Origin: Gammaproteobacteria bacterium
Lineage (GTDB): Bacteria > Pseudomonadota > Gammaproteobacteria > Steroidobacterales > Foliamicaceae
Reading direction: 5' to 3'
Assembly: GCA_007571315.1 (NCBI GenBank)
Contig: RKRP01000156.1
Location: 1-39,016, forward strand
Length of the DNA stretch: 39,016 nucleotides
Shown here: piece by piece, positions 3,630 to 22,623 of the stretch
How the letters are laid out: every line of letters begins with the position of its first letter
How positions within the stretch are numbered: the first letter of the stretch is position 1
Notes under the pieces: generated by a model
What the model was told of the DNA's origin: nothing
Database searches by the model: none
The model's input: the letters and a program-made list of their open reading frames with translations, nothing else
Position numbers and translations under genes: made by a program

Positions 3630-5086
3630 ATGGGGGCGCTCCAGGGCACCTCCATATCCTCCGCCAGCGGCCCTTCATGCACCCAGCCGTATTGCGTGTT
3701 GCTGGGTTGAGGCCCGCTTTCCAGATAGGCCGCCCGCATCCGGCTGAGCCGGTCACCTGGTATCGCTTCCAAGGCCGCCGCCATGTCGATTCCGTACATG
3801 CGCGCCGCATTCAAGCCGAGGATCAATTCCTTGTCCTGCCTTGTTAGCGCCGGATAACCGTGCTTGTCCTGCAGTTCTTCGGGAATCTCGAAGCGGCGGA
3901 ACGCCTCGATCTGCCATTGCGGCGAACCCCACCAGATCGAATCGGTGCCCCAGATGACGCGCTCACTGCCGAAAGCCTTGAGAATCTGGCCCATCAGGTG
4001 CCCGCATATTTCCGGATGGGTGATTGCCGTGTGCCCAAACACGCTGCCCAGTTCCATATAGACATTGGTCATCCGGGGCGTTTCCAGGCGGTCCTTCACG
4101 ATGTCGGAGGTCCATACCAGGTAGCCGTTCTCGTCGATTCCGGTTGCGCCGGCCGACAGTTCATTGGTGAGATTCCTGAAGCCCGAGTGATAGACGATAA
4201 AGTTGAGATCCGGCCAGTCCAGGGCGGCCTTGCGGATGTCCCAGGGACGGCAGAATTCCGGGTCGGTGCCGGTTATCGGCAATCCCTTGTGCACCGAAAT
4301 ATTGGTTATGCCCAGCTTGAGCGCGAGCTCGTAGAAGGGGTACGCCACGTCCTCGTCATCCATGCGCCAAGGGTCAATCGGAACGCCGGTGTAGCACTTC
4401 CAGCCGTCCACCTTAAGCTCGGCAGCCTGACGCTCGATTTCCTCCAGGCTGCCCGGCATGTTGGGCGCTGCCAGACCATGGCTGAGCATGCGCCGCGACC
4501 CCGCCAGATCATTGATCGTCCTGCGCGTTTCCACCATCATATCCACCGGCAGGATGTTCTGATCTTCGCGACCGATCGGGGCGCCGCTGATGATGCCCAT
4601 TGCCGTGTCGCTGTCCAGGAACACTTCCTTGATGAAATTCTCAAGGTGCAGGTCGCCGCGTTTGGGCCGAACGCCCACAAGGTCCGGATTGAGATTGAAC
4701 ATGCCGGCGAGCCGGCGGAAGCCCAGCGGGCCTGGAATCTCGTCCTTGACGTGATGCAGCTGCGCGTCGAAGATGAACTGCGGCCACGCCTCCCCCCGGT
4801 CATCAAGCTCTGCGGCCTCAGCCCAATCGACGAGAAAATACCTGCCAAACACTTCGTTCATCGCCAGGAAGGCGGCAGCCATTCCGCCGGCGCTGCGCAG
4901 ATACTGCCTGCGGCTGATTCCGCGTTTCCGGGCCAGGCGCTCCGCGAGTTGGTGAATTCGACGCTCCACCCGCCGCTGATCTTCGGTCTGCGGCATCGGA
5001 AGATACTCCTCGTTGGAAACCACCTGCGTTGGAACCGGTGTGAACCGGTCTTCCCGCCGGTCCTTGTCACTCTTGCGAACCCACAT
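3626..5086 (-). CDS. amidohydrolase-family (PF04909) protein with Tat-like leader
   Basis: A 486-residue metal-dependent hydrolase of the amidohydrolase 2 type. A twin-arginine-like motif SRRQYLR at residues 58-64 is followed by a hydrophobic Ala/Gly-rich stretch, which suggests export by the Tat route after an unusually long n-region, or a start further in (Met31 is an alternative). The first metal-binding strand reads FDAQLHH (D107, H111, H112), a known variant of D-x-H-x-H. Later landmarks are ISVHKGLP, VYHSGF and the C-terminal WGTDSIWWG with the catalytic-type Asp. Substrate unknown; relatives act on cyclic amides, esters or decarboxylate aromatic acids. GAGGGG lies upstream of ATG 5086. 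It is followed by the truncated dioxygenase gene with a four-base overlap. Confidence 0.8.
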   Translation of the reverse strand: MWVRKSDKDRREDRFTPVPTQVVSNEEYLPMPQTEDQRRVERRIHQLAERLARKRGISRRQYLRSAGGMAAAFLAMNEVFGRYFLVDWAEAAELDDRGEAWPQFIFDAQLHHVKDEIPGPLGFRRLAGMFNLNPDLVGVRPKRGDLHLENFIKEVFLDSDTAMGIISGAPIGREDQNILPVDMMVETRRTINDLAGSRRMLSHGLAAPNMPGSLEEIERQAAELKVDGWKCYTGVPIDPWRMDDEDVAYPFYELALKLGITNISVHKGLPITGTDPEFCRPWDIRKAALDWPDLNFIVYHSGFRNLTNELSAGATGIDENGYLVWTSDIVKDRLETPRMTNVYMELGSVFGHTAITHPEICGHLMGQILKAFGSERVIWGTDSIWWGSPQWQIEAFRRFEIPEELQDKHGYPALTRQDKELILGLNAARMYGIDMAAALEAIPGDRLSRMRAAYLESGPQPSNTQYGWVHEGPLAEDMEVPWSAPI

Positions 5087-15009: not shown

Positions 15010-15103
15010 GCATCCTCCCGAATAAACGGCATGATTGTAAGCGCCAAACACAAAGGTAGCGGCTAAACTGCGTTTGATTTTGGCGCAAAAGTCTAACAGC
15101 GCA

Positions 15104-16522
15104 ATGAAAAACGGGAATTCACAGTGGCGCGGCGCGGCGCCTGCCGATGGCTCTCTTCCGCAAAGCTTGCGCATCAACTTTGGCGCCGGCGCGCTGGGCA
15201 TGGCCGTAATCCTGAACACCATGGGCGGCATCCTCGCCCCTTTCATGACCAACTTCCTGGGGATAAGCGCAGGAGCGGCGGCCACGTTGCTGCTAGCCTC
15301 CAAACTGTACGACATGGTGACCGATCCCCTGATGGGCGTGATCAGCGACCGGACGACGACGCGGTGGGGCCGCCGCCGCCCGTTCCTCATGCTGGGAGGA
15401 GTCATCGGCGCTCTCGGATTTGCGCTGGTGTTCAATCCTCCGGCCCTCGGCAACCAGGACCTGCTCATCGCTTATGTGCTGGGGGCGCTGCTGATCACCT
15501 ACACCGGCTACACGGTTTTCAATATTCCCTACCTGGCCATGCCCGCGGAAATGACCCGCAGCTACCACGAACGCACCACGCTGATGTCGCACCGGGTTGT
15601 ATTCATCAATATTGGCGCGCTGGTCGCGGCATCCTCGTTTGCCATGGTCCAGTGGCTGGGGGATGACCGGGCCGCGCACGGAACCATGGGCTGGACGTTC
15701 GCAGCCCTCATTCTCCTGGGGTCGGCCTATTGCTTCTTCGGCACCGCGGCCGCCCGGCAGACATCCCCAAAGGGGCATGCCTGGCCGGTCGGCGCGCAAA
15801 TCCGCACCGCCTTCAATAACAAGCCGCTGGCGCTTCTGCTTGGAGCCAAGTTCTGCCAGTTGCTGGGCCTGTCGGCTTCAGGCGCTATGGGAGTGTATTT
15901 CAAGGTTGGCATTCTTGGACTCAGCTATCAGCTCACAACCGTGTACCTGTTCACCAGCATCCTGGTCATCCTGGCGTTCATTCCGGTGTGGAACATGGCG
16001 GCGCGCAGGCACGGGAAGCGGCTCATCTACATGGCCGCCAGCGCCGGTTACGCGCTTGTAACGCTAACTTGGCTGCTGGCCACCGCGGACGACCCCCTCT
16101 CCTGGATCTTCATCCGGGCGGTCCTCCTCGGCGCTTTCGCCAGCGGCATTCTGGTCATGGGGCCGGCCCTGCTGCCGGACGCGGTGGAGTACGACTACCT
16201 CAAAACCGGAATGCGCCGGGAAGGCACCTTGTCTTCGTTCTATGCGACCGTGGAAAAGCTGGCTTTTGCGATTGGCCCGGCGCTGACGCTGTGTTTCCTG
16301 AGCGGGTTCGGCTACCAGGAAGGCACCGAAGGCATGCAGATTGAGCAGCCGCAAAGCGCTATCATCGCAATCTATATCGGCGCCGGCCTGATCCCGGCCG
16401 CGCTATACGGGTTCAGTCTGGCCTTCCTGTGGAAGTATGACCTTTCGGAAGACAGGCTCAAGGCGCTGCGGTCCCGCGGCAATGCAGCCGGACGAGAAAG
16501 CGCCAGCAGGCCATCAAGCTAA
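15104..16522 (+). CDS. GPH-family (MelB-like) MFS cation symporter
   Basis: A 472-residue major facilitator protein of the glycoside-pentoside-hexuronide:cation symporter group, with about 12 hydrophobic segments. Diagnostic segments are LLASKLYDMVTDPLMGVISD followed by R-T-T-T-R-W-G-R-R-R-P-F in the first loop (the acidic residues form the cation and sugar site in MelB), Y-T-V-F-N-I-P-Y in helix 4, and L-P-D-A-V-E-Y-D-Y-L-K-T-G-x-R-R-E-G in the second half. Substrate is not predictable; no sugar catabolic gene is adjacent. ATG 15104 is chosen over TTG 15074, although neither has a good ribosome binding site. It is divergent from mrp. Confidence 0.86.
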   Translation: MKNGNSQWRGAAPADGSLPQSLRINFGAGALGMAVILNTMGGILAPFMTNFLGISAGAAATLLLASKLYDMVTDPLMGVISDRTTTRWGRRRPFLMLGGVIGALGFALVFNPPALGNQDLLIAYVLGALLITYTGYTVFNIPYLAMPAEMTRSYHERTTLMSHRVVFINIGALVAASSFAMVQWLGDDRAAHGTMGWTFAALILLGSAYCFFGTAAARQTSPKGHAWPVGAQIRTAFNNKPLALLLGAKFCQLLGLSASGAMGVYFKVGILGLSYQLTTVYLFTSILVILAFIPVWNMAARRHGKRLIYMAASAGYALVTLTWLLATADDPLSWIFIRAVLLGAFASGILVMGPALLPDAVEYDYLKTGMRREGTLSSFYATVEKLAFAIGPALTLCFLSGFGYQEGTEGMQIEQPQSAIIAIYIGAGLIPAALYGFSLAFLWKYDLSEDRLKALRSRGNAAGRESASRPSS

Positions 16523-16540
16523 ATCCGGGCCAACCCGGAG

Positions 16541-16556
16541 CAGGCTCGCCAGCCTG
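16541..16556. repeat. small hairpin between convergent genes
   Basis: CAGGCT and AGCCTG pair around CGCC in the 89-base gap between the transporter gene and the convergent coiled-coil gene. No T-tract follows, so it is only a weak terminator candidate. Confidence 0.3.
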
Positions 16557-16611
16557 AAGAGCGCGGGCGCCGCGGCGGGTTGACCGGCCTGAATCCTGGC
16601 GGCCCGCAGGC

Positions 16612-16968
16612 TTATAGTCCCAGATACTGTAGAGCCTTGAGGACGGCAACAATAGTTCCAGCCATGAGGTAGATCTTCGTGTTCAACCTGGACTCCAGAG
16701 CGCTCATCTTCGCATCGAACCTGGACTCCAGAGCCCGGATATCGCTCTTTGTTTCGTTCCTCAGAGCAGCGATATCGCTCTTAAGGGCAACGATATCGCC
16801 TTTCACAGCAGCGATGTCACCTTTCACAGCAACGATGTCGCTTTTCGTTGCGATTTCCTCGTTGCGCTGCGCTATGGCGCGCACAATCGCCCGCGCCTGA
16901 TTGGGAGGAATACCCTCGGCCCTGAGTCCGTCAATGGCGGCGGCGGTGTCTATCATGTATCCAGCCAT
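16612..16968 (-). CDS. small coiled-coil membrane protein, copy 1 (DUF1640-like)
   Basis: A 118-residue protein with three parts: an N-terminal helical segment ending in LPPNQA-like IPPNQARAIVRAIAQRNEE, a coiled coil of repeated units (KSDIVAV, KGDIAAV, KGDIVAL, KSDIAAL, then two 11-residue units RNETKSDIRAL and ESRFDAKMSAL), and a C-terminal hydrophobic anchor IYLMAGTIVAVLKALQYLGL. This plan resembles the DUF1640/CCDC90 group, relatives of mitochondrial calcium-uniporter regulators; function in bacteria is unknown. The start is ATG 16968 because AAGGAGG lies 10 bases before it; an earlier in-frame ATG at 17004 has no such site. A near-identical paralogue lies inverted at 18261-18593. Confidence 0.78.
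   Translation of the reverse strand: MAGYMIDTAAAIDGLRAEGIPPNQARAIVRAIAQRNEEIATKSDIVAVKGDIAAVKGDIVALKSDIAALRNETKSDIRALESRFDAKMSALESRLNTKIYLMAGTIVAVLKALQYLGL
16685..16734 (-). repeat. 33-bp direct repeat in coiled-coil gene copy 1
   Basis: The 17-mer AACCTGGACTCCAGAGC occurs at 16685-16701 and again at 16718-16734, exactly 33 bases apart, which corresponds to one 11-residue coiled-coil unit. Copy 2 of the gene lacks the extra unit. Confidence 0.75.
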
Positions 16969-17018
16969 GGAACGCGTGCCTCCTTGTTCGCTCAAATGCA
17001 GCATCCGTTCGACAGCGT

Positions 17019-17044
17019 ATTATAACGCGCTCCACCGCAGCGCG
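17019..17044 (-). promoter_or_regulatory. promoter with palindrome, coiled-coil gene copy 1
   Basis: On the minus strand TATAAT (17019-17024) is preceded after one base by the palindrome CGCGCT-N7-AGCGCG (17026-17044). The palindrome occupies the spacer and approaches the place of a -35 box, where no TTGACA-like sequence is seen. This suggests an activator- or repressor-controlled promoter. The same layout occurs at 18185-18210. Confidence 0.6.
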
Positions 17045-17179
17045 GCCCACCGCTTGCGCACGGGCTCGCCGTCTCAGGCGGGCGGCGCTCCTGCGAGTCA
17101 TGTGGCGCGGCGCGACCGAAAGGCCACGGCCAGCGCCCGCACGGCAGCATCCAGGCGCGGCGCGGCCTTATGCGGGCAG

Positions 17180-17413
17180 TCAGTCGTCGTCGAACCAGTC
17201 ATCAAGTTCGGCGCCCTTCAGTTCCTCGATCGCGTATTCGTTGAAAAAGCGGTACGCCGTCCAATGGCTGATCTTGTCCTGAAGGGCGAGTTCCTGTTCC
17301 GAATCCGCGCCGTCCAGAGCTTCACGGTAACCGCGCAGCTTGTTGTTGGAATAGTCGATGCAACGCTTCAGGAAATCCTCAACAATGCGCTTTTTCTCGC
17401 TGGATGCGGCCAT
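17180..17413 (-). CDS. small conserved-looking acidic protein, function unknown
   Basis: A 77-residue protein from ATG 17413 with an excellent ribosome binding site (AAGGAGGA, 5 bases spacing). It is predicted mostly helical, with a Lys/Glu-rich start, the segment FLKRCIDYSNNKLRGYREAL, then KISHWTAYRFFNEYAIEELK and a very acidic end DDWFDDD. I cannot name a family. Real-gene features are the strong ribosome binding site, the balanced amphipathic composition and the position back to back with the O-methyltransferase gene, with about 100 bases between the starts. It lies inside the inverted pair of coiled-coil cassettes. Confidence 0.7.
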   Translation of the reverse strand: MAASSEKKRIVEDFLKRCIDYSNNKLRGYREALDGADSEQELALQDKISHWTAYRFFNEYAIEELKGAELDDWFDDD

Positions 17414-17461
17414 TCGATCCTCCTTTTTTTGAGGGCTGGCCGATATACTACGCCGCGGCCC

Positions 17462-17479
17462 GGGATTTTCCGAAATCCC
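17462..17479. promoter_or_regulatory. perfect inverted repeat in divergent promoter region
   Basis: GGGATTT-TCCG-AAATCCC is a perfect 7-bp inverted repeat lying between the starts of the divergent small gene and the O-methyltransferase gene. Position and symmetry fit an operator for a dimeric regulator, or a hairpin in the 5' leader. TATACT at 17444-17449 could be a -10 box, without a good -35. Confidence 0.4.
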
Positions 17480-17513
17480 AGGGGCCCCGGAAACCCCGGA
17501 GGCTTCCAAAACA

Positions 17514-18167
17514 GTGACTGCCCACCTCAACCTCGATGCATACCGCCGCAGCCTTTTCGGCTGCGAGGACGAATTGCTTGCCGGGATTATGCCCGCGGCG
17601 ATCGCTCGCGGCCTGCCTGATATTTCCGTAAACGCCGAAACGGGACAGGCGCTTAATCTCCTCGCGCGGATGATTGGCGCACGCAGGATCCTGGAATTCG
17701 GCACCTTGGCCGGCTATTCGGGAATCTGGCTGGCGCGCGCGCTGCCGCCGGACGGACTGCTGGTAACCAACGAGCTCGAGCCGCTGCACGCCCAGGTGGC
17801 CGGGGAGAACTTTCGCCGCGCCGGGGTGGAGGACCGGGTTCGCATCGTCATGGGCAGCGCTCTGGAAGCGCTGCCTGAACTGGCCGCTTACGCGCCGTAC
17901 GACCTGACCTTCATCGACACGGCCAAGGAGCTTTACGGCGAAGCGCTGGATTTCGCCCTGGAGCATACCCGGCCAGGCGGCCTGATTCTGGGCGACAACA
18001 CCAACTGCTTCGGCCAGGGCCACGAGGAGCTGGCGCCGGATCATCCCGCATACGGCATACAGGTTTTCAACCGCCGCATCGCCACCCACAAGCGGCTTAA
18101 GTCCATGATCGTGCCGGTCGGTTCCTGGCTCTCGGTATCGCTGGTGCTCGCCCGCCCCGAAAAATAA
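17514..18167 (+). CDS. SAM-dependent O-methyltransferase (family 3, CCoAOMT-like)
   Basis: A 217-residue class I methyltransferase of the caffeoyl-CoA O-methyltransferase-like family 3. The SAM-binding strand reads ILEFGTLAGYSGIWLA at about residues 59-74, followed by a LVTNELEP acidic loop, DLTFIDTAKELY with the metal-binding type Asp, and PGGLILGDNT, where the second Asp-Asn pair normally coordinates the divalent cation. Start is GTG 17514 with GGAGG about 11 bases upstream. Substrate cannot be inferred; the neighbours give no pathway. It is bracketed by the inverted coiled-coil cassettes and is divergent from the small acidic protein gene. Confidence 0.85.
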   Translation: MTAHLNLDAYRRSLFGCEDELLAGIMPAAIARGLPDISVNAETGQALNLLARMIGARRILEFGTLAGYSGIWLARALPPDGLLVTNELEPLHAQVAGENFRRAGVEDRVRIVMGSALEALPELAAYAPYDLTFIDTAKELYGEALDFALEHTRPGGLILGDNTNCFGQGHEELAPDHPAYGIQVFNRRIATHKRLKSMIVPVGSWLSVSLVLARPEK

Positions 18168-18184
18168 ATATTCAGATTAAGGGC

Positions 18185-18210
18185 CGCGCTGCGATGGAGC
18201 GCGTTATAAT
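18185..18210 (+). promoter_or_regulatory. promoter with palindrome, coiled-coil gene copy 2
   Basis: CGCGCT-N7-AGCGCG (18185-18203) is followed after one base by TATAAT (18205-18210). The 7-base loop differs from copy 1 at one position while both arms are identical. No TTGACA-like -35 is visible. Confidence 0.6.
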
Positions 18211-18260
18211 GCGCTGACGAATGGATGCTGCATTTCAGCGAACAGGGAGGCCCGCGTTCC

Positions 18261-18593
18261 ATGGCTGGATACATGATAGACACCGCCGCCGCCATTGACG
18301 GACTCAGGGCTGAGGGCCTTCCTCCCAATCAGGCGCGGGCGATTGTGCGAACGATAGCGCAGCGCAACGAGGAAATCGCAACGAAAAGCGACATTGTTGC
18401 TGTGAAAGGTGACATCGCTGCTGTGAAAGGCGACATCGCTGCTGTGAAAGGCGACATCGCTGCTCTGAAAAGCGACATCCGGCGGCTGGAGAGCGAAATC
18501 CGCGCTCTGGAGTCCAGGTTGAACACGAAGATCTACCTCATGGCCGGAACTATTGTTGCCGCCCTCAAGGCTCTACAGTATCTGGGACTATAA
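18261..18593 (+). CDS. small coiled-coil membrane protein, copy 2 (DUF1640-like)
   Basis: A 110-residue paralogue of the protein encoded at 16612-16968. The first 45 residues and the last 20 are almost the same (LPPNQARAIVRTIAQRNEE here; anchor differs by one residue), while the coiled coil differs in unit number: KSDIVAV, three KGDIAAx units, KSDIRRL and ESEIRAL, all 7 residues long, where copy 1 has two 11-residue units. The start is ATG 18261 with GGGAGG 10 bases upstream; the earlier in-frame ATG 18225 lies only 14 bases after the -10 box. The C-terminal hydrophobic segment should anchor it in the membrane. Function unknown. Confidence 0.78.
   Translation: MAGYMIDTAAAIDGLRAEGLPPNQARAIVRTIAQRNEEIATKSDIVAVKGDIAAVKGDIAAVKGDIAALKSDIRRLESEIRALESRLNTKIYLMAGTIVAALKALQYLGL
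18391..18474 (+). repeat. four tandem 21-bp units in coiled-coil gene
   Basis: Four 21-bp units follow one another, the second and third identical (each begins ACATCGCTGCTGTGAAAGG). Each unit encodes one heptad. In-frame units of this kind can be gained or lost by slippage without breaking the gene. Confidence 0.8.
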
Positions 18594-18602
18594 AGCCGCT
18601 TG

Positions 18603-18643
18603 ATCGGCCCCGGCGCGATTGAGGCGGCGGCGCCGGGGCCGAT
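18603..18643. terminator. perfect 14-bp hairpin between convergent genes
   Basis: ATCGGCCCCGGCGC (18603-18616) and GCGCCGGGGCCGAT (18630-18643) form a perfect 14-bp GC-rich stem with a 13-base loop, placed between the converging ends of the coiled-coil gene and ftsH. There is no T-tract on either strand, so it is a bidirectional barrier or mRNA 3'-end stabiliser rather than a textbook intrinsic terminator. Confidence 0.6.
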
Positions 18644-18660
18644 AGCGAGGGGCAGCGCTG

Positions 18661-20589
18661 TCAGTGCTGCTCGGCGGGCTTGCCAATATCGCCGCTGGCG
18701 GCGCGCTTGCGCTTCCTGCGCGCGGGCTTTTCCTTCTTGTCCTGCTGGTCCCAGCCTGGAGGCGGGCTGGGTTCCTGCCCGTCCATGATCTCCTTGATTT
18801 GCGCCTGCTCGATGGTCTCGTACTGGAGCAGCGCCTCGGCCATGGCGTGCAAACGGTCCATGTGTTCGGTGAGTATGCCCCTGGCATCCTCGTAGGCCGC
18901 GTCAATGAGCTCGCGCACTTCCTTGTCGATGGCGTGAACCGTGGCGTCCGACACCTGCTTGTGCTGGGTTACAGCGCGCCCAAGGAAAACCTCGCCGTCT
19001 TCCTCGCTGTAGGTTAGCGGGCCAAGCCGCCTGGAAAGGCCCCACTTGGTAACCATGTTGCGCGCAATCGCGGTGGCGCGCTCGATGTCGTTGGCCGCCC
19101 CGGTGGTTACCGCATCCTTGCCGAACACCAGTTCCTCGGCCACGCGGCCGCCAAACAGGCTGGCAATCTGGCTAACTAGGCGCTGCCTGGAATGGCTGTG
19201 GCGGTCCACTTCCGGAAGAAACATGGTTACGCCCAGCGCCCGCCCGCGCGGAATGATGGTGACCTTGTGCACCGGGTCGTGTTCGGGAACGTTCAAGCCC
19301 ACAATAGCGTGCCCGGATTCGTGATAGGCCGTGAGTTTGCGCTCCTCGGGACTCATCACCATGGATTTGCGCTCGGTGCCCATCAGGATTTTGTCCTTGG
19401 CGCGCTCGAACTCTTGCATTTTCACCTTGCGGGCGCCTGCCCTGCCGGCAAGCAGGGCGGCCTCGTTGACGAGGTTGGCGAGGTCGGCGCCGGAAAAGCC
19501 AGGCGTGCCGCGCGCCAGGGTGCTGGCTGAAACGCTATCGTGAACCGGCACCTTGCGCATGTGGACCTTGAGGATCAGTTCGCGGCCGCGAATGTCCGGC
19601 AGCGGCACCACCACCTGGCGATCGAAGCGCCCCGGCCGCAGCAGCGCCGGGTCCAGAACGTCCGGGCGGTTGGTGGCGGCAATTACGATAATGCCATCGC
19701 TGCCGGCAAAGCCGTCCATTTCCACCAGCAACTGGTTGAGCGTTTGCTCGCGCTCGTCATGGCCGCCGCCCAGGCCCGCGCCGCGATGGCGCCCCACCGC
19801 GTCGATTTCGTCGATGAAGATGATGCACGGAGCCTGCTTCTTGGCCTGCTCGAACATGTCGCGCACTCTGGATGCGCCCACGCCCACGAACATCTCCACA
19901 AAATCCGAGCCGGAGATGGTGAAGAAAGGCGCCTCGGCCTCGCCCGCGATGGCGCGCGCCAGCAGCGTTTTGCCGGTGCCGGGCGGACCCACCATCAGCA
20001 CCCCCTTGGGAATCTTGCCGCCCAGGCGTTGAAATTTGGATGGGTCCTTGAGGAACTCGACCACCTCGCCCACTTCCTCCTTGGCCTCCTCCACGCCCGC
20101 CACGTCCTCGAAGGTGACCGGCGTCTGGTCCGGATTGAGCAGGCGAGCCCTGCTGCGGCCGAACGACAGGGCGCCGCCGCGGCCGCCCACGCCGCCCTGC
20201 ATCTGCCGCATGAAGTACAGCCAAATGCCAATCAGCAGCAGAAACGGGAGCAGGTTGAGAAGGAAGGACAGCCAGGCGCTCTCCGACTTCGGCTTGGGAG
20301 AACGCACCACCGCGCCGTTATTGGTGAGCTCGCGCACCAGTTCCGAGTTGTCGGTGGACGGCGGGCTGTAGGTAACGAATTTCTCGCCGCTGGTCTGCTC
20401 GCCCCGGATGGTGCGGTTTTCGAGTATTTCAACCTCGCGCACCCCGCTGTTGCGGACCATTTCCACAAATGCCGAGAAATGGAGCTCTTGCGCAGGCGCG
20501 GTGCTGTTGTTCAGAGGCCGGAGCAGCAGCATCAGGGCCAGCGCAATCACCAGCCACAAAAAGAGGTTCTTGGTCAGTTTGTTCATCAT
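18661..20589 (-). CDS. ftsH: ATP-dependent zinc metalloprotease FtsH
   Basis: A 642-residue membrane-bound AAA+ protease that degrades misfolded membrane proteins and regulators such as sigma-32 and LpxC. Order: a membrane segment at the N-terminus ([15 protein letters not shown]), a periplasmic domain, a second membrane segment ([18 protein letters not shown]), the AAA domain with Walker A GPPGTGKT and Walker B IIFIDE, the second region of homology around GRFDRQV, and the zinc motif HESGH in the C-terminal protease domain. ATG 20589 is chosen; GTG 20595 and ATG 20586 are alternatives. A -10-like TACAAT lies just upstream. In most gammaproteobacteria folP-glmM follow; here the next gene is convergent. 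Confidence 0.97.
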
Positions 20590-20598
20590 CCGCACCGG

Positions 20599-22399: not shown

Positions 22400-22623
22400 A
22401 GCGAAAAAAGGCACATATAGTGGCCAATTTTTCAAAACATGCGCACCAATCATTCCCGTATGGGACGGCAGACGGCCCGCAGGCCCAGACCGCGCTGACC
22501 CTGGAGCGCCTGACCCGCATATTTCAACAGGGGTTCATGCGTCCCCGCCGAGAGGAGGGGCAACCCGCGCGAACTCAGCAAGTGGCGGGGCAGCGTGCTC
22601 GATGCCCAGGCTATGCGGGGCGG

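Follow-up and report, generated by a model that had tools for sequence, protein, structure and literature searches.

Oppositely oriented promoter-to-stop cassettes for a CCDC90-like protein flank an inverted P4/O-methyltransferase gene pair in a gammaproteobacterial draft genome

A 39-kb contig (C171) of an uncultured draft genome, taken here over its whole length as the window, carries two oppositely oriented copies of a short unit that consists of little more than a promoter region and a gene for a CCDC90-like coiled-coil protein. Between these copies, A and B, lie a gene for a small conserved protein, P4, and an O-methyltransferase gene, OMT (Table 1). We put at about 60% the probability that A and B are dispersed paralogous promoter-to-stop cassettes and that the P4-OMT pair has been inverted between two copies of opposite orientation. 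The pair is best read as the substrate or the scar of a past inversion.

Table 1. Features of the window around cassettes A and B
Feature	Position	Strand	Basis
Cassette A: -10 region, leader, RBS and CCDC90-like gene	16612..17048	-	Inverted-repeat search; alignments with three own-genome and two congener copies
CDS of A: CCDC90-like/DUF1640 coiled-coil protein, C-terminal hydrophobic helix, 118 aa	16612..16968	-	Translation; PF07798
Leader of A, 41 nt before ATG	16969..17009	-	3-4 differences from other copies, including those of other species
-10 box TATAAT of A, without recognisable -35	17019..17024	-	Direct reading
3' tail of A, ~45 nt	16562..16611	-	Local alignment to the rpsP-site cassettes C38 and G005
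Cassette B: -10 region, leader, RBS and CCDC90-like gene	18181..18593	+	Inverted-repeat search; alignments
CDS of B: CCDC90-like/DUF1640 protein, 110 aa	18261..18593	+	Translation; PF07798
Leader of B	18220..18260	+	28-mer scan; leader comparison
-10 box TATAAT of B	18205..18210	+	Direct reading
P4, small conserved protein, 77 aa, no Pfam match	17180..17413	-	Pfam search; synteny
O-methyltransferase (OMT), PF01596, divergent from P4	17514..18167	+	Pfam E=7.6e-31
P4-side synteny-breakpoint interval	17049..17168	.	G005 alignment begins at 17169
OMT-side synteny-breakpoint interval, between OMT and the 3' end of ftsH, holding B	18162..18660	.	Alignments to G005
MFS_2 sugar transporter, end of the MFS block	15074..16522	+	Comparison with G005
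ftsH, anchor gene of the conserved neighbourhood	18661..20595	-	Congener synteny

A de novo repeat search recovered A and B as inverted arms in two stretches, 16754-17048 against 18181-18475 (295 nt, 92% identity) and 16612-16703 against 18502-18593 (92 nt, 98% identity), with a spacer of 1132 nt. These matches are far beyond chance, with non-self copies down to E 1e-155 among the four copies in the draft genome. The search agrees with an earlier note on this DNA, which described inverted copies sharing promoter, ribosome binding site and coding sequence around a 1132-nt interior with two divergent genes; both copies have TATAAT, and the two genes are P4 and OMT. That note also took the arms to be identical, which they are not: their longest exact common run is 58 nt, and their coding centres differ by the gain or loss of 21-nt heptad-repeat units. 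B and C38, another copy in the same genome, have a 98-nt exact run in common. Both reading frames start MAGYMIDT (MAGYMIDTAAAIDGL...), and the leader contains a ribosome binding motif, AAGGAGG in A and AGGGAGG in B. A consensus scan for full sigma-70 promoters at the cassettes found none, so the promoter call is made from the conserved -10 box by itself. No Rfam family was found within 16400-18800.

The window genome (204 contigs, 91% complete) was compared with eight congeners, G001 to G008, making nine congeneric genomes in all. The genome-wide search for further copies that the earlier note had suggested turned up two besides A and B. C38 lies upstream of rpsP; C80 stands between a DUF1838-like gene and, on its downstream side, a putative acyl-CoA dehydrogenase gene (called by eye from its first codons). 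In G005 a single copy occupies the rpsP position of C38, and in G006 a single copy precedes pyrH; the remaining six of the eight congeners have none. Among 396 genomes of the order, a single match lay outside the genus, in a distant relative; when GTDB contigs were scanned, the only records recovered were those of G005 and G006. The collections of viral contigs, plasmids and phages that were searched contained no cassette relatives. The leader 28-mer GGATGCTGCATTTCAGCGAACAGGGAGG, allowing up to 3 mismatches, occurs in the nine genomes only at the six cassettes. Synonymous divergence (dS) among the four own-genome copies is 0.22-0.39; between species the leader varies at 0-4 of its 41 nt, and dS reaches ~1. 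So little change in the leader suggests that these DUF1640 genes are regulated in a common, conserved way. The genus has several other divergent CCDC90-like genes with varying numbers of heptad repeats, which lack the conserved leader (L010, L011, L036, L037, L041, L042, L048).

All six cassette proteins match PF07798 (CCDC90-like, the former DUF1640; best E 6e-7), those of the window at 26.6-28.2 bits, below the curated cut-off of 33.5; a longer, 130-aa reading of A gives E=2e-6 and is likewise under the cut-off. Five of the six contain IATKSD, and G006 has VATMSD. IATKSD fits the beta-layer motif that precedes the stalk in DUF1640 proteins, [aliphatic]-A-T-K-[polar]-[DE] (PMC4786415). A single long helix is predicted for residues 22-107 (mean pLDDT 89.5), and the C-terminal hydrophobic 19-mer scores a modest 1.4-1.5 on the Kyte-Doolittle scale. 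The sequence match to 6h9l is weak, and a Foldseek search of the predicted model against the PDB gave nothing significant. The cassette proteins resemble the CCDC90-like family (PF07798; relatives of MCUR1/CCDC90B in prokaryotes and organelles) in their short head and beta-layer motif, and in a predicted heptad stalk and putative C-terminal hydrophobic anchor, but differ from it in that the window members score under the Pfam cut-off and that the gene is multicopy here, with a common promoter and leader. A literature search for CCDC90B/MCUR1 in prokaryotes turned up no paper in the collection that was searched. The open frames are conserved (dN/dS 0.07-0.44), and we infer that the product is likely a membrane-anchored coiled-coil scaffold.

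The limits of the copied unit can be read from the pairs of copies. In most pairs the 5' edge of similarity falls between -58 and -93 relative to the ATG, and the 3' edge at the stop codon or no more than ~20 nt from it, the exception being the tail of A, C38 and G005. For A and B it sets in ~80 nt before the ATG and ends with the stop codon; lenient A-B and A-G005 alignments extend into GC-rich sequence, and C38-G005 similarity extends into the orthologous rpsP locus. The earlier note's statement that similarity starts just above the promoter and stops at the stop codon holds for A against B. A also has a ~45-nt 3' tail in common with C38 and G005 that B lacks; the tail match of A to the rpsP-site cassettes outscores all 200 shuffles. 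Beyond these limits, windows flanking A and B are near 50-65% alike. Because dS among the own-genome copies is only 0.22-0.39, flanks duplicated together with the genes should still be ~75-80% alike, yet they are unlike. At the C80 locus the flanking genes are 651 bp apart, while the empty site in G005 and G007 measures 139 and 146 bp; the net gain of 505-512 bp matches the length of the cassette (~500 bp). An empty site of a single cassette is thus present, where the earlier note had proposed to look for sites without the whole 16612-18593 block, and both the copy-pair limits and the gain at C80 uphold its description of the unit as limited to promoter plus gene.

None of the six copies has a pair of terminal inverted repeats better than shuffles. 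In the target-duplication test only G006 showed a direct repeat, of 9 nt (0.012 in one of 12 tests), with one arm within the conserved region; no consistent or convincing target duplication was found across the copies, nor was a transposase for them. The cassettes resemble MITEs and other non-autonomous elements in being short dispersed units without a transposase and in the clean empty and filled states of the C80 site, but they lack terminal inverted repeats and a consistent target duplication, and they are made up almost entirely of gene plus promoter.

Extra sequences and repeats were also noticed at several of these loci. In G003 ~2 kb of extra sequence stands between dnaE2 and rpsP (L083 7770-9940), where G005 has its cassette. 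G006 has, upstream of its own cassette, an XRE-type antitoxin region of 610 bp (L024 about 3922-4531) that is 91% identical to a different G005 locus; this suggests a mobile toxin-antitoxin module. At the C80 locus (L018 in the window genome, G000), a putative DNA adenine methylase gene, called by eye (1285-2208), splits two DUF1838-like genes, which are neighbours in most congeners. The methylase gene is bracketed by short dispersed repeats (1203-1260 and 2305-2444) with dozens of copies in its own and related genomes, and a partial copy of this repeat lies in the window at 22531-22593 (+), 83% identical over 63 nt.

The gene order of the congeners places A and B at the ends of a rearranged segment. 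The conserved order is ftsH, DDC (a decarboxylase gene that P4 overlaps), P4, OMT, MBL, imuA, imuB, dnaE2, rpsP, rimM, trmD, rplS, with an SDR gene detected within the chain in G005 and G008 only. All or most of this chain is kept, with neither A nor B, in G001 (whose contig carries only the end of ftsH), G002, G003, G005, G007 and G008, and among these only G005 has a cassette before rpsP. G006 keeps the order ftsH-P4-OMT on sequence that does not reach rpsP, and in G004 P4 is retained and the stretch from OMT through most of dnaE2 has been lost. OMT orthologues are 83-85% identical in seven of the eight congeners. Relative to ftsH, the window's P4-OMT pair is inverted in comparison with every congener that keeps both genes, and A and B occupy the two breakpoint intervals, A on the P4 side and B on the OMT side. 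On the P4 side DDC is truncated after about five codons, followed by unassignable sequence and then cassette A; on the other, G005 alignments stop at 18161 in OMT and resume at ftsH. Un-flipping the segment between the arms gives ftsH-B-P4-OMT-A. This is the congener gene order, and OMT then has downstream of it a cassette that carries an rpsP-type tail and is oriented as in G005; such agreements in orientation are few, and each of them has an appreciable probability of arising by chance. The informative sites form an apparent mosaic, in which A groups with B at the 5' edge and with C38 in the 3' half and tail. This pattern, drawn from about two dozen sites, several of them in the repeat region or in flanks that align poorly, would suit exchange between copies.

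The inversion was not one clean step. The P4 side now joins an MFS block that in G005 lies ~0.32 Mb from ftsH, the locus appears to have lost DDC, MBL, SDR, imuA, imuB and dnaE2, and the ~115 bp between P4 and the 5' edge of A are unaccounted for, all of which call for further events. A possible dnaE2 remnant in the 5' flank of A outscores most shuffles (by genome, 0-10 of 200 reach its score), but it was set aside as unproven in view of GC-rich sequence and inconsistent alignments.

On the reading we prefer, the unit that was copied would begin ~65-80 nt before the ATG, a little above the -10 box, and end with the stop codon; copies of the rpsP type also have the 45-nt tail. An ancestral copy may have stood upstream of rpsP, and this lineage would have acquired copies of its descendants at new intergenic sites. 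P4-OMT would later have flipped between opposing copies, most simply if the arms underwent homologous recombination. Additional rearrangements and gene losses could then have linked the pair to the MFS block, with deletions in a shrinking genome. The arms today would be ordinary expression units and passive recombination substrates, neither an active switch nor the ends of a cargo transposon. Inverted homologous copies at breakpoints are also seen in chromosomal inversions mediated by IS elements, rRNA operons or paralogous genes; the difference is that the repeat here is a 0.4-kb single-gene cassette, whose causal role we infer.

The copies might instead be ordinary dispersed paralogues from larger duplications or horizontal acquisitions; selection would have preserved promoter and gene as the flanks decayed, and the inversion would be coincidental. 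The open frames under purifying selection and the strongly conserved leader suit this account, as does a genome that is smaller than most of its congeners and rearranged at the window locus. Still, we hold it to be unlikely, because flanks should remain detectable at the dS of these copies and because the C80 site gained the length of the cassette only. Rather less probable is a minimal element of the "expression cassette" kind. Here a trans-acting or novel activity with no need of terminal repeats would copy the promoter-to-stop unit, with its gene for a membrane coiled-coil protein, intact into intergenic sites, and the element would seed chromosomal inversions. It is very unlikely that the junctions in C171 were misjoined at repeats during assembly: the assembly is fragmented and B and C38 have their 98-nt exact run in common, but A and B share no exact run above 58 nt, their full arms differ at many sites, and both sit deep inside the contig.

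The earlier note had further proposed that the arms flip the interior or form a mobile unit carrying it as cargo. The interior is indeed inverted relative to ftsH in comparison with the congeners, and inverted arms enclose its 1.1 kb. An active switch, with repeated recombination between A and B flipping P4-OMT and so controlling its expression, is nonetheless highly improbable: the arms have diverged, a flip would leave P4 and OMT with the divergent intergenic region that they share, and neither interior gene matches a recombinase family, so that near-identical arms and, among the interior genes, a dedicated invertase are both missing. To a composite mobile unit with A and B as ends we give next to no credence. 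Two similar sequences do flank two genes, but in seven of the eight congeners P4 and OMT are old syntenic neighbours without arms, held in place in the ftsH-rpsP neighbourhood, which contradicts a cargo transposon; the other cassettes stand alone, and terminal inverted repeats and a convincing target duplication are lacking.

Products of the bdr genes of Borrelia carry a C-terminal membrane anchor, and Borrelia families related to bdr share upstream promoter boxes. The bdr family is multicopy; its paralogues differ in how many imperfect internal repeats they have, and homologous recombination reassorts the alleles (PMC3303823). The cassettes are likewise multicopy paralogues with variable internal repeat number, but bdr genes have been described from plasmids, including the phage-like cp32s (PMC3303823), whereas the cassettes lie on contigs with housekeeping genes.

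Altogether, this is a real and tidy case of promoter-to-stop paralogue dispersal that coincides with an inversion. Each part of it resembles known processes. It provides a datable example (copy dS 0.2-0.4) of a single gene that has spread within a chromosome with just its promoter and leader, and whose copies coincide with a local inversion. If the limits of the unit hold at strain level, precise promoter-to-stop copying without transposon ends would become directly testable.
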